A stretch of 49,801 nucleotides of DNA from an uncultured Pelagibacteraceae bacterium. Its GTDB lineage: Bacteria; Pseudomonadota; Alphaproteobacteria; Pelagibacterales; Pelagibacteraceae. The stretch lies in assembly GCA_902522325.1 (NCBI GenBank), contig CABYVA010000005.1, positions 1-49,801 of the forward strand. The letters run 5' to 3'. Made by a program: the position numbers and the translations under genes. This document shows, in pieces, positions 14,737-20,747 of this stretch. The notes below the pieces were generated by a model that was given only the letters and a program-made list of their open reading frames with translations, was not told the origin of the DNA and did not search any database. Numbering within the stretch: position 1 is the stretch's first letter; every line of letters begins with the position of its first letter.

Positions 14737-15639
14737 ATGGAAATATATTACAAGTTATTTGAAGTCTTATTTCCTGTATTTTTTGTAGTTGGTATTGGTT
14801 ATTATCTTGGAAAAAAAAACCCAAAAATAGATACATCTTTTATTACAAATTTTGCTGCAAATATTGGTACTCCAGCAATGATAATATTTGCAGTTACATC
14901 TACTGGAATTACATTTGATATATTTAAAGACTATTTCTGGTATTATTTGATAGCGATTACGTGTTTTGCCGCTGTTGGTATTCCTACCTTATTTCTTTTA
15001 AAAACAAAAGATATAGTTAGAGAGCTTCCACCTCTTATTTTACCAAACACAGGTAATATGGGTGTTCCGATATGTCTTTTTGCATATGGTTCTGAAGGCC
15101 TGGGTGTTTCTGCATCTATCACATCTTTAATTATTTTATTTCATTTTACTTTAGGTGTTTTTTTAGCTGATAGAAAATTTAATTTAAAAATTATTTTAAA
15201 AAACCCACCATTTTATGCAATATTATTTTCCACACTAATTCTGTACAATGACATCGATCTACCAGTTTTTATTATCAATACAACAGAATGGTTAATGTTT
15301 GCTACAATTTTTTTGATACTTATGTCATTAGGAATTGCTTTAACTAGACTAAAAGTTTTTTCATTATCAAATGCTTTGGTTTCTTCATTTACAAGAATGA
15401 TTATAGGACCCATTATCGGACTAATCTTGATATTTTATTTTGATCTTTCTGGTTTTGCAGCGGGCGTTTTGTTAATTCAATGTTCTATGCCTAGTGCTGT
15501 ATTAAACTATTTAGTAGCTAGTATTTATTCTCCAAAAAAAATAGTAGATAGTGTAGCAAGCACAATTGTTGTTTCTACTCTGATGTCATTTATAACTTTA
15601 CCTATTGTAGTTTATTTCGCTCTGAAATATTTTTCTTAA
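14737..15639 (+). CDS. AEC (auxin efflux carrier) family transporter
   Basis: 10-TM pattern, LPPLILPNTGNMGVPICLFAYGSEG signature. Confidence 0.85.
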   Translation: MEIYYKLFEVLFPVFFVVGIGYYLGKKNPKIDTSFITNFAANIGTPAMIIFAVTSTGITFDIFKDYFWYYLIAITCFAAVGIPTLFLLKTKDIVRELPPLILPNTGNMGVPICLFAYGSEGLGVSASITSLIILFHFTLGVFLADRKFNLKIILKNPPFYAILFSTLILYNDIDLPVFIINTTEWLMFATIFLILMSLGIALTRLKVFSLSNALVSSFTRMIIGPIIGLILIFYFDLSGFAAGVLLIQCSMPSAVLNYLVASIYSPKKIVDSVASTIVVSTLMSFITLPIVVYFALKYFS

Positions 15640-16491
15640 ATGAAGGCTATTATATTGAATTTATCGGCATGGGTTATGCTGCCTATAATGGATGGCTTTG
15701 CAAAATATTTAAGTTCAACAATACCAGTTCTCCAAATTACTTGGTCTAGATATTTTTTCACTGTTATAATTGCTTTACCCATTATGTTATTTTTTTTTAG
15801 AAAAGATTTCAAATGGACTCAGCAACCTAAATTACAATTAATTCGTGGTTTACTACTATTTAGTGCTAACATTTTATTTTTTTATTCAATTTCTGTAATT
15901 TCACTTGCTAAAGCTCTTACTTTAGCCTTTATAGCTCCTTTAATAGTAACTATTTTGTCTCCCATTTTACTATACGAGAAAGTTGGCTTTCGTAGATGGG
16001 CAGCAGTGATAACTGGATTTATTGGTTCATTAATCGTTCTAAGACCTGGTTTCGTTGAGATAAATTCAGCTAGCCTAGCAGCTTTAGGAACAGGTTTTTT
16101 ATATGGAATTTATTTAATAGTAACTAGAAAATTACATAATTCAGATCATCCTCTTTTAACGCTTCTATTAACTGGTGTAGTAGGGGCTATAATTGGCTCA
16201 ATGATAGTGCCTATAGTTTGGGTTAAACCTACATTAATAGAATGGTACATGATGTTTGCTATAGGTTTTTTTGCTTCTTTAGGTCATCTTCTTCTTATTC
16301 TATCTTTAAGATTTGCAGACGCTTCAAGATTAGCTCCTTTAGGTTATTTTGAAATTATTACTAATATTATTATCGGTTTTTACTTCTTCAACCACTTCCC
16401 TGACAACTGGACTTTCCTTGGTTTGTTTGTAATTGTGCTATCTGGCATTTATATATTTAAAAGAGAGTCGCTAAATAAATCTAATATTTAA
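15640..16491 (+). CDS. DMT superfamily (EamA) transporter
   Basis: Duplicated EamA repeats; 10 TM; SLAKALTLAFIAPLIVTILSPILLYEKVGFRRW. Confidence 0.88.
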   Translation: MKAIILNLSAWVMLPIMDGFAKYLSSTIPVLQITWSRYFFTVIIALPIMLFFFRKDFKWTQQPKLQLIRGLLLFSANILFFYSISVISLAKALTLAFIAPLIVTILSPILLYEKVGFRRWAAVITGFIGSLIVLRPGFVEINSASLAALGTGFLYGIYLIVTRKLHNSDHPLLTLLLTGVVGAIIGSMIVPIVWVKPTLIEWYMMFAIGFFASLGHLLLILSLRFADASRLAPLGYFEIITNIIIGFYFFNHFPDNWTFLGLFVIVLSGIYIFKRESLNKSNI

Positions 16492-16911
16492 CTTAATATA
16501 ATACTTCAGTTATATGATTTATATAATTGAAATTATTGAATATTTTATACTTATTAAAGTAATAGATTAATATATGTGATAAATAGATACTCTTATATAA
16601 AATAAAATGAGTAGTGAAATAAGACAGTAAAATCAAGGGTTTTTGAAGTGTTAAAACAAAATCATCAATTATAGTTTTATAAAGGTCAATATAATCAAGA
16701 AAATAAGGGAAAATATCACCTATTTTAGTGGCAAAATAAGCCCTGATAATCTTAGATTCCAGAGCTTTGCAGAAACTGAATATAGCGTTTAAACGGCCAT
16801 AGAAGGGGTATATTTAGCGATATATACATAGATAGTACAACTGAAGGGTGAATGTAAAAAATATAAGGATAATAGGGGGTAAATTAAAAAAAACGTTGGT
16901 ATTAATAGCTT

Positions 16912-17187
16912 TTAGACCCAAAAACCTTCCTTTTTTAGTAGTTTTTTCTTAGCCTTTGATCCTCCAGGAGCGGAAAAACCACCTATGGATCCATCAGATC
17001 TGATAACTCTATGACATGGTATTTTAGGTGGATAAGGGTTTTTCCCGCATGCATTAGCCACAGCTCTAGCTGCTTTAGGCATATTAATACCAATTGCTAC
17101 CTCTTTATAGGTTTTTACCTTACCTTTTGGTATAGTTTTTAGATATTTCCAGACTTTTATTTGAAATTTAGTACCTTTAAGGATCAT
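16912..17187 (-). CDS. small O6-alkylguanine-DNA alkyltransferase (MGMT) family protein
   Basis: PCHRVIRSDGSIGGFSAPGG active-site block with Cys; ATG at 17187 (MILKGTKFQIKVW) preferred over the GTG at 17217 in the ORF track. Confidence 0.85.
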   Translation of the reverse strand: MILKGTKFQIKVWKYLKTIPKGKVKTYKEVAIGINMPKAARAVANACGKNPYPPKIPCHRVIRSDGSIGGFSAPGGSKAKKKLLKKEGFWV

Positions 17188-17188
17188 A

Positions 17189-17377
17189 AAACAGAAAAAA
17201 CCCCTGTTTCCTTGCACTTTTTACGGTGCAAAGAACAGTAGTTTTGGCACGTCGTTGTATGCGCTACCGCCATGCCTTCCGCTCTACATGTTTAGCGCTG
17301 CTTTGTAGAGCTTTCTGCCCCCTGGGCTTGAACCTCTCGGTTTTTCCCCAATCGGCCAGTTAAGGGTTGCCCCTTAA
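17189..17377 (-). ncRNA. candidate structured RNA of unknown class (or structured 5' leader of the MGMT gene)
   Basis: Minus strand: TTAAGGG-GCAA-CCCTTAA (17360-17377), AACC-GAGA-GGTT (17331-17342), GCTCTACA...TGTAGAGC (17281-17311) interleaved with GCGCTA/TAGCGC (17261-17298), TTGCAC...GTGCAA (17212-17231), AAACAG...CTGTTT (17189-17209). Visibly higher GC than the flanks; no ORF of 60 aa or more in its core. Confidence 0.4.
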
Positions 17378-17474
17378 TTAACAAAACAATATCAAAATCA
17401 ATAAGTTGAAAGTATCACTTATTTGTTGAATTTTAGGGGTTTTTCACAGGGCCTGAATAGTGGGGAAAACTTTT

Positions 17475-17639
17475 TTAATTCATTAATAGGTACAAAAGCA
17501 CAAAAATACTCAATAGAAATAAACCAAAAATAATCATTAAAATTCTATTTTTTGTTATTTCTGAAGCTTTTGACCAAAAATTCATTATCACAAATAATAA
17601 TACTGGTACCGCCAATCCAATTAAAATGTATTTAGGCAT
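17475..17639 (-). CDS. 54-aa predicted membrane protein (absent from ORF track)
   Basis: Manual translation MPKYILIGLAVPVLLFVIMNFWSKASEITKNRILMIIFGLFLLSIFVLLYLLMN*; two hydrophobic segments. Confidence 0.6.
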   Translation of the reverse strand: MPKYILIGLAVPVLLFVIMNFWSKASEITKNRILMIIFGLFLLSIFVLLYLLMN

Positions 17640-17722
17640 TAAAATTATTTATATCTTATTTACTTGACATTAAAAATGCTACATATTATAGTTCCGATAA
17701 TTAATGGTTATCGGAAATATAT

Positions 17723-18640
17723 ATGAATGAACTTGTAACAGACATAAAAAGTCTTGAATTAGAAACTTTAAAAAATTTAAAGAATTCTAAAGCTGCTAAT
17801 ACATTAAGAGCTTATCAAGCTGATTTTAAGGATTTTTCATCATTTTGTATAAAAAATGGATTAACTTCAATGCCAACTGAGCCTAAAATACTATCTTTGT
17901 ACCTAACCCACTTATCATCAACATCAAAATTTAGCACCTTAAAGAGAAGAATAGCTTCAATAAGCGTGATTCATAAGATGAAAGGGCATTATTTGGACAT
18001 AAAACATCCAATAATTATGGAAAATTTACATGGAATTAAAAGAGTCAAAGGAAGTAATCAAAAAGCGAAAAAACCTATATTAATCAGTGATTTAAAACTA
18101 ATAATTAATGCTATAGATCAATCAAATCAAACTGAAAAAAAAAAAATTAGAGATAAATCTATCATACTGACAGGATTTTCAGGAGGATTCAGAAGGTCGG
18201 AATTAGTAAATATTGACTACGACGACATAGAATTTGTAACCGAAGGTGTAAAAATTTTTATAAAAAGATCAAAAACTGATCAATCTGGTGAAGGAATGAT
18301 TAAAGCTATACCCTACTTTGAAAATAAAATATTTTGTCCAGTAACAAACCTAAAAAAGTGGATTGATTATTTAGATATTAAATCAGGCAAAATATTTGCT
18401 ATCTCAGATAAAAGCGTTGGTCTAATAATTAAAAAATATGCATCATTATCAGGTTTGGATGCAAATAGGTACGGAGGCCATAGTCTTAGATCCGGTTTTG
18501 CTACATCAACAGCTGAGTCAGGCGCAGAAGAAAGAAATATTATGGCAATGACAGGTCATAAAACTACGCAAATGGTTAGAAGATATATTCAAGAAGCAAA
18601 TTTATTTAAAAATAATGCATTAAATAAAATAAAAATTTAA
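17723..18640 (+). CDS. site-specific tyrosine recombinase / phage-type integrase
   Basis: SAM-like N-terminal domain plus catalytic set: GGFRRSEL (R), SKTDQ (K), HSLRSG (HxxR), GHKT (H), RRYIQ (Y). Confidence 0.93.
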   Translation: MNELVTDIKSLELETLKNLKNSKAANTLRAYQADFKDFSSFCIKNGLTSMPTEPKILSLYLTHLSSTSKFSTLKRRIASISVIHKMKGHYLDIKHPIIMENLHGIKRVKGSNQKAKKPILISDLKLIINAIDQSNQTEKKKIRDKSIILTGFSGGFRRSELVNIDYDDIEFVTEGVKIFIKRSKTDQSGEGMIKAIPYFENKIFCPVTNLKKWIDYLDIKSGKIFAISDKSVGLIIKKYASLSGLDANRYGGHSLRSGFATSTAESGAEERNIMAMTGHKTTQMVRRYIQEANLFKNNALNKIKI

Positions 18641-19911
18641 TTTGTGTTTATATTATCACCAACTCTTATTACATTAGAATCGTTAATATTGTAAATATAT
18701 CTAAATGGGTCAATAATAATAGAATTACTAGGAAATTTAAATTTTAAAAATTCTTTATGTTTAGTTCCAATAAAAAAAGTATGTTTAATACTTTTATTAT
18801 CCCAATTATTTTTTGACAAAACTTTATCAAATGGTTCGTCTACAAAAGGATCCCAGGAAAAAACTTTTTTACCTTTTTCTTCAAGAATATTTTTAAGAAG
18901 AATAGAAGGACTGCCCAACAATAAATTAGTTTCAGGTTTAAAGGTTTTGCCCAATATATTAATTTGCCTATCTTGAGATTTATCTATTATAATTTTAGCA
19001 AGCCATTCTGTTTGTTTTTCTCTTTGCATCATTATTCCTTCAAACCAATCATAAGATAAATTTAATTTTTGAGATAAATGGCTCAATGCTATATTGTCTC
19101 TGGGATGACAACCTCCTCCATCACCCATTCCACCAGACAAATAAGCATCTGAAATTAATCTTCTATTAGCCATTTTTAAAGCATTTGTAACATCGTCAAT
19201 ATTTGTATTTGGTAAATGATAACAGGCTTCCATAATTGTATTAACAAATGAAATTTTAGTTGAGATCATAGTGTTATAAGAAACTTTAATTAATTCTGCA
19301 TTTTCAATTGTAGTTTTGTAAAAAGGAGAATCGCAAATAGTCTTATAAAATTTTTCTGCTAAATCTGATGCATTTTGGTCATCAACACCAAATAAGATAA
19401 ATTCAGGATATAAAAAATCTCTTATAGTTGATCCCATCGCTATAAAAAAAGGATTATAACAAAGCTTTGTATGTTTCCCTAGCAGAGGTTTTATTTGACT
19501 TCTAATTGTACCAGGCAAAACAGTAGAAATAATAATTACTACCTTATCTTCATTATTTTTTTCAATAGCAGCAGACAAATCTTTTAATCCAGCTTTTAAA
19601 AAGGAATAGTCAAAATCTATTCTTTTATCCGGTATTTTTGTAATTCCTTCATATAAAGGATCATGTGGTGTTTGAATCGGAACAAAAATAATTTCAGATT
19701 TTTTGACTAAATCGTCAATGTTAGTTATTTCTAAATTCGTTTTTGGAAGATACTTATCTACCCACTCTTCCCTATATCTAATTTTTCTCTTTTTAATATC
19801 ATCAATTGTTTTTTTTGAAATATCATATCCGAAAACTTTATGTCCTTTGCTTTCAACTGCCAAACTAACTGGAAGACCTAATTTACCTAATCCTAAAAAT
19901 CCTATATTCAT
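18637..19911 (-). CDS. nucleotide-sugar dehydrogenase (UDP-glucose/GDP-mannose dehydrogenase family)
   Basis: MNIGFLGLGKLGLPVSLAVESKGHKVFGYD Rossmann start; SGGMGDGGGCHPRDNIAL active-site Cys; LGKTFKPETNLLLGSPS. Confidence 0.88.
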   Translation of the reverse strand: MNIGFLGLGKLGLPVSLAVESKGHKVFGYDISKKTIDDIKKRKIRYREEWVDKYLPKTNLEITNIDDLVKKSEIIFVPIQTPHDPLYEGITKIPDKRIDFDYSFLKAGLKDLSAAIEKNNEDKVVIIISTVLPGTIRSQIKPLLGKHTKLCYNPFFIAMGSTIRDFLYPEFILFGVDDQNASDLAEKFYKTICDSPFYKTTIENAELIKVSYNTMISTKISFVNTIMEACYHLPNTNIDDVTNALKMANRRLISDAYLSGGMGDGGGCHPRDNIALSHLSQKLNLSYDWFEGIMMQREKQTEWLAKIIIDKSQDRQINILGKTFKPETNLLLGSPSILLKNILEEKGKKVFSWDPFVDEPFDKVLSKNNWDNKSIKHTFFIGTKHKEFLKFKFPSNSIIIDPFRYIYNINDSNVIRVGDNINTN

Positions 19912-20747
19912 ACTAATTTATTTGACTCAATAATTCTGTTTTTTAATGTATCTTTCCAAATTTGATAATCTTTTTCTGGAACACCATCTTTAATATTCTT
20001 AAGATGAGTATTGTCAACCTCATTTTCGTGCGTATTGGCAGAAATTTGTGAAACTTGAATTTTTGAGGATACTAAGAATTTTTTGCTACGAAAACTTAAA
20101 TCACATATCCAAGTATCTAAATACCAAAAATTAAAGTATTCACTACCAACATAACCTAGTGTTTCGTACCAATTTCTATTGATTATAGGAAAATCACAAT
20201 GCAAATATCTATATTTTTTTCCTGAATCAATCCAGAGACAATATGGTTTATTTTTTGGTGTTTTTGAAAATTCCTCATTTATTAATAAATCCCAATTATT
20301 TGATAAAAAAATCATATCATCATTAATTGGAAATAATATTTCACCTGTGGATTTTGCCGCTAAAAAATTGTTTCTTTGAGCGTGAGTCTTTAGATTTTTA
20401 ATAAATAACTTGATACTAATCTTATTTGAAATTTCATCATTTATAATTTTTCTGTAAACATCTATTTCATTATCATCCTCATCTAATAAAATTAAAATTT
20501 CACTACTAGAATAAGAATTACATGTATTTTTAAAACTTTTTAACATTCTCAAAAATTTACTGGATCTTTCCCTAGTTGGGCACAATAAAGAAATTTTAAA
20601 ATTAGTAATTTTTCTTTGTGAAACCTTAAAGAACAACGTCAGAACAAAGTATTTAGTAATTGTATAAAAATACCAAAATAATCTTTTAAAACCCTTAAAA
20701 ATATCTTTTTTTAGGCTTTCCAGTAATGTACGATTTTTTTTTTTCAT
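19908..20747 (-). CDS. GT-A fold glycosyltransferase-like protein
   Basis: ISLLCPTRERSSKFLRMLKSF, NDDMIFLSNNWDLLI; embedded in a glycosyltransferase operon. Confidence 0.7.
   Translation of the reverse strand: MKKKNRTLLESLKKDIFKGFKRLFWYFYTITKYFVLTLFFKVSQRKITNFKISLLCPTRERSSKFLRMLKSFKNTCNSYSSSEILILLDEDDNEIDVYRKIINDEISNKISIKLFIKNLKTHAQRNNFLAAKSTGEILFPINDDMIFLSNNWDLLINEEFSKTPKNKPYCLWIDSGKKYRYLHCDFPIINRNWYETLGYVGSEYFNFWYLDTWICDLSFRSKKFLVSSKIQVSQISANTHENEVDNTHLKNIKDGVPEKDYQIWKDTLKNRIIESNKLV

Follow-up and report, generated by a model that had tools for sequence, protein, structure and literature searches.

IMES-2 RNA (Rfam RF02035) was reportedly described by Weinberg and co-workers in Nature in 2009 from marine metagenomes, and that original report is said to have recorded high expression in ocean metatranscriptomes. 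Our literature search found no paper treating the function of IMES-2. IMES-1 (RF02034) takes its name from the same series of marine RNAs. Among free-standing bacterial small-RNA genes, 6S RNA (RF00013) forms a single long hairpin interrupted by a central bubble. Marine picocyanobacteria carry Yfr103, a conserved structured non-coding RNA of unknown function; a site at -29 to -58 upstream of it is also conserved, and in Synechococcus the RNA is multicopy and 290-328 nt long (PMC5069720).

Here we analyzed a 49,801-nucleotide stretch of DNA (the window) from an uncultured Pelagibacteraceae bacterium. SAR11 bacteria rank among the ocean's most numerous, and their structured RNAs include IMES-2. 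Like Yfr103, the RNA found here is a conserved structured marine non-coding RNA with a conserved upstream site, but the organisms differ.

Identity of the RNA

A cmscan search against Rfam demonstrated that the minus strand of 17244-17384 encodes IMES-2 (159.7 bits, E 4e-42; gathering threshold 54.7). The match is full length and untruncated, covering model positions 1-141, with one pair marked as non-standard. The original prediction had left this structured RNA unassigned, and the search that it named as a check supplies the class. IMES-2 is an already catalogued ocean RNA, not a new class. Membership is based on a score above the gathering threshold, the full-length consensus structure with the same hairpins and loops, and a marine bacterial source, the named matches being SAR11 records. 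Beyond the Rfam description, our data place the RNA in Pelagibacteraceae and add a terminator, a two-box upstream region, a covariation test of the kissing pair, and divergent homologues with scores of 62-95 bits. What is added to the known class is thus the layout of the promoter, covariation in the loops, the distribution in SAR11 and probably recurrent gain or loss, although the original paper may already hold the loop pairing or the SAR11 assignment.

No other Rfam model, including those for tmRNA, RNase P RNA and SRP RNA, scored above threshold at 17244-17384, and ARAGORN found no tmRNA at the site. A sub-threshold match to tsr26 nearby on the opposite strand (26.6 versus 141 bits) was dropped. 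A conserved small ORF inside the RNA was likewise rejected, as stops occur in every frame of every homologue.

Structure and covariation

The helices of the RNA are listed below; A3 denotes an alignment of 22 sequences, divergent homologues included.

17244-17384, minus strand: IMES-2 RNA core, covariance-model match to RF02035 (model positions 1-141)
17360-17377, minus strand: P1, 7 bp, GCAA tetraloop; 100% of cells paired, double changes in 5 of 7 pairs (A3)
17315-17359, minus strand: P2, closing helix with a GAAA/CAAG internal loop, enclosing P3; double changes in 9 of 11 pairs (A3)
17331-17342, minus strand: P3, 4 bp, GAGA tetraloop; changed in those homologues that diverge most
17281-17311, minus strand: P4, 8 bp, with kissing loop 1 (GCGCUA, 17293-17298); 8 of 8 pairs doubly changed
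17246-17276, minus strand: P5, 9 positions including one constant non-standard pair (G.A here), with kissing loop 2 (UAGCGC, 17261-17266)
17261-17298, minus strand: kissing-loop pseudoknot GCGCUA/UAGCGC; covariation on an alignment built without regard to this helix

The RNA region has a GC content of 49-52% versus about 22-33% in its surroundings, and its minus-strand fold reaches -71.4 kcal/mol (z = -5.1 against dinucleotide shuffles). The RNA would fold into three domains, namely P1, P2/P3 and a P4-P5 pair locked by 6 bp of loop-loop kissing. Much of this had been read correctly from the letters: the raised GC content, P1, P3, the 8-bp stem and GCGCTA/TAGCGC all lie on the minus strand where the original prediction put them. 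The interleaved GCGCTA/TAGCGC pairing also exists, but it is the kissing of two hairpin loops, the hairpin at 17246-17276 having been overlooked, as was a second helix, the one closing around P3 at 17315-17359.

Covariation, the check proposed for the minus-strand RNA and its pseudoknot, was found in every helix and in the kissing loops. Among 46 distinct sequences, pairing is kept in 95.0% of cells versus 31-40% in slid controls, and 227 cells are doubly changed versus a shuffle mean of 65.6; related sequences share changes, so that such counts are not independent events. The A3 alignment has 173 double-changed cells versus 50.7 in shuffles, with 34 pairs carrying double changes, but its sequences were fitted to the nested helices and their counts are biased that way. 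The kissing pair provides a more independent test because it lies outside the model used: 94.7% of its cells are paired, three of its six pairs carry double changes, and none of 500 shuffles scored as high on these measures. The loop 1/loop 2 variants GCGCUA/UAGCGC and, in divergent relatives, GUGCUA/UAGCAC, UCGCU/AGCGA and GCACU/AGUGC can all pair. Every helix and the kissing pseudoknot are therefore supported by compensatory changes in the aligned homologues. Conserved self-dimerization of loop 1 through the palindrome AGCGCU was rejected, since divergent homologues carry AGCACU, AGUGCU or AUCGCU while loop 1/loop 2 pairing is kept.

Predicted transcription unit

The elements flanking the core are as follows.

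17195-17239, minus strand: intrinsic terminator, hairpin 17201-17239 plus T run 17195-17200, -16.4 kcal/mol
17388-17393, minus strand: -10-like GATATT; its position is not rigid across homologues
17412-17428, minus strand: box II, CAACAAATAAGTGATAC, -35 region, conserved in homologues
17452-17469, minus strand: box I, two tandem DnaA-box-like 9-mers, TTTTCCCCA and CTATTCAGG in the window

Transcription is predicted to start near 17381 and to end near 17195. Two terminal hairpins had been proposed at 17212-17231 and 17189-17209; these pairings are present, but they are better read as the single terminator hairpin followed by TTTTTT. A terminator-like hairpin, defined by a folding energy under -8 kcal/mol and a run of four or more T behind it, about 40-57 nt past the core, occurs in 80 of 90 homologues versus 12 of 141 control pieces. 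The stems differ in sequence, and the element is found in all four of the gene neighbourhoods described below.

In 89 of the 90 homologues the start of box II (CAACTAAAAAGTGATAC) falls between -43 and -46; elsewhere in the genomes the box occurs at about chance level. Box I, with the consensus TTATCCMCA NTATTCACA, lies either 31-33 or 40-42 bp upstream of box II in 82 of 90. The scores of the two boxes are far above those of control stretches, and both are kept in all four neighbourhoods. The DnaA box consensus is TTATNCACA; box I may be called DnaA-box-like by consensus, and the window's own copy is degenerate and matches poorly. The two spacings between the boxes differ by 9-10 bp, close to a full turn of the helix, which would suit a bound protein that has to keep its helix face, although a shift by one 9-bp repeat could mimic this. 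An origin of replication, considered from the DnaA-like boxes, was rejected: in genome G015 the RNA is close to the skew maximum (the terminus), and in genome G001 it is close to neither extreme.

Taken together, our sequence comparisons show that the core, the two-box upstream region and, in most homologues, the Rho-independent terminator form a self-contained unit of about 275 bp whose neighbours vary.

Gene neighbourhoods

The gene downstream of the RNA in the window is:

16912-17187, minus strand: O6-alkylguanine-DNA alkyltransferase (MGMT-like; PF01035, 109.6 bits), a neighbour and not a required partner

The unit occurs in four neighbourhoods. In the first, a recombinase and a small membrane ORF precede IMES-2 and MGMT follows; only here does IMES-2 adjoin the recombinase. 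The second (18 of about 147 loci, plus L175 from another genus) has mnmA, IMES-2 and a convergent membrane gene, and the third an SNase gene, IMES-2 and a convergent SRAP gene. In the fourth, IMES-2 lies between a SelO/YdiU-like gene (assigned by eye) and RmuC, about 160 bp past the RNA core.

The original prediction offered two readings, an independent small RNA or a structured leader controlling the alkyltransferase gene. As a riboswitch or attenuator of MGMT, the RNA would use its terminator as the switch, and the arrangement in the window, with RNA and terminator directly before the MGMT start codon, invites that view, as does the fact that IMES-2 precedes MGMT in most loci listed. However, a cis-regulatory leader should consistently precede same-strand genes of a single class, which IMES-2 does not. 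The mnmA loci usually have a convergent gene downstream, the third neighbourhood has the convergent SRAP gene and the fourth has RmuC; the terminator is retained where no same-strand gene follows, and MGMT is present in other genomes without IMES-2. The RNA is not an alkyltransferase leader, because the same unit lies in four neighbourhoods, two of them with a convergent downstream gene, and we regard cis control of MGMT as very improbable. With its own terminator and its varied settings, IMES-2 is very probably, judging from the sequences compared, an independent minus-strand gene for an RNA about 190 nt long, which is the first of the two readings offered. Read-through into MGMT is possible in the window because the start codon is just 7 nt past the T run.

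Distribution and probable repeated gain or loss

IMES-2 is single-copy in the window's genome and is present in 200 of 397 Pelagibacterales genomes, spanning 6 of 13 genera, with one copy each. When both kissing loops were used as a DNA pattern against one genome per species (84,980 species), at least 80 matches were obtained, and all those listed are Pelagibacteraceae/Pelagibacterales (SAR11) single-cell genomes or metagenome-assembled genomes. The exact pattern was not found in viral contigs, nor was IMES-2 found in phage genomes by blastn. A class-wide scan of 289 genomes gave two matches only, both in the same family, with stricter filters under which weak homologues elsewhere are possible. 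The IMES-1 model was unmatched in the 397 Pelagibacterales genomes; its controls were silent too, which leaves the absence of IMES-1 weakly supported.

Sister genera hold alignable but sequence-divergent homologues. Four divergent homologues (L180, L181, L182 and L184, from genomes G300, G315, G001 and G007) score 62-95 bits with the Rfam model, have an altered P3 and changed kissing loops, and are candidates to extend the Rfam seed. Within the same genus, IMES-2 is absent from some genomes that are nearly complete. In 14 of the genus's non-carriers, a sensitive search with a broadened model found nothing clearly above chance, and in the second family of the order it found no homologue. Weak matches in negative genomes (L185, L186, L190 and others) were rejected as chance, control genomes giving the same range of E-values; the two inspected, L186 and L190, are without the core motifs.

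At the IMES-2-free loci L152, L153 and L155, the small ORF and MGMT are separated by a gap of about 8 nt, an empty site, whereas relatives L057 and L086 carry the whole unit between these genes. In an MGMT tree (68 columns, poorly resolved), carriers and non-carriers are intermixed, with six label changes at best, at least two of which are forced by well-supported branches. Because of the empty site and this intermixing, IMES-2 has probably been gained or lost more than once and is probably dispensable at the genus scale.

Function

A trans-acting small RNA that binds protein or pairs with other RNAs is the most likely reading of these features. Acting in trans, IMES-2 would most likely serve as a compact scaffold for a protein or ribonucleoprotein. 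We favour this scaffold or protein-binding role, tentatively and at somewhat under even chances, because three-dimensional architecture (tetraloops, internal loop and kissing loops), rather than a free seed or a neighbour gene, is under the strongest constraint. An antisense RNA whose exposed loops pair with mRNAs, possibly with Hfq, is possible but unlikely: the free-standing gene with its U-rich terminator and the conserved unpaired stretches suit such a role, but the most conserved loop bases are largely consumed by the kissing pair. That IMES-2 replaces 6S RNA at RNA polymerase, in genomes where 6S goes unrecognized, appears improbable. The 6S model was unmatched in G000 and 15 other SAR11 genomes, while Caulobacter and other controls were positive, so that 6S in these 16 genomes is either lost or too divergent. 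IMES-2, however, consists of several short hairpin domains with kissing loops and is not a single long hairpin, and genomes free of IMES-2 likewise are without a recognizable 6S. Catalysis or another function takes up what remains after the scaffold, antisense and 6S-like readings.

Hardly credible is a structured DNA site, serving recombination or replication in place of an RNA. The DnaA-like boxes, and a dif-like palindrome with a tyrosine recombinase about 300 bp away at a GC-skew switch, could hint at one, but the GNRA loops and tolerated G-U pairs fit a minus-strand RNA, terminators follow it, and the gene in G001 is far from the skew extremes. As for control of the RNA gene, a factor on the tandem box I may set transcription from the same helix face as polymerase at box II. 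DnaA or a relative, bound to the tandem boxes upstream of the dedicated promoter in either of two fixed helical registers, would then set the level of the structured RNA, tying a growth or replication signal to SAR11 gene control; we consider this proposal doubtful. With named SAR11 genomes, a defined unit and closely related carriers and non-carriers, function can be tested by comparison or, if cultured strains carry the RNA, by experiment.

The adjoining recombinase locus

Beside the RNA gene, the window encodes a tyrosine recombinase (PF00589; 17682-18640) next to a conserved imperfect palindrome, at a GC-skew switch. The palindrome reads TTACTATTGATAA-CAATTAA-TTATCATTAGTAA in relatives, and its arms in the window, TTCCGATAA/TTATCGGAA, have changed on both sides together. 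Within 15000-20000, the sign of the GC skew and the gene direction flip near 17.5 kb, consistent with a replication terminus. G015 likewise has a tyrosine recombinase and a dif-like palindrome at its skew maximum, and in G001 the recombinase, at 773.7 kb, is near that genome's skew maximum. Recombinase and palindrome may constitute a single-recombinase Xer/dif system, since no XerD scored over the curated cut-off in the SAR11 genomes tested. Adjoining the recombinase, 18637-20747 holds surface-polysaccharide-type genes (nucleotide-sugar dehydrogenase-like and glycosyltransferase-like, read by eye), and the gene content at this position differs among relatives.
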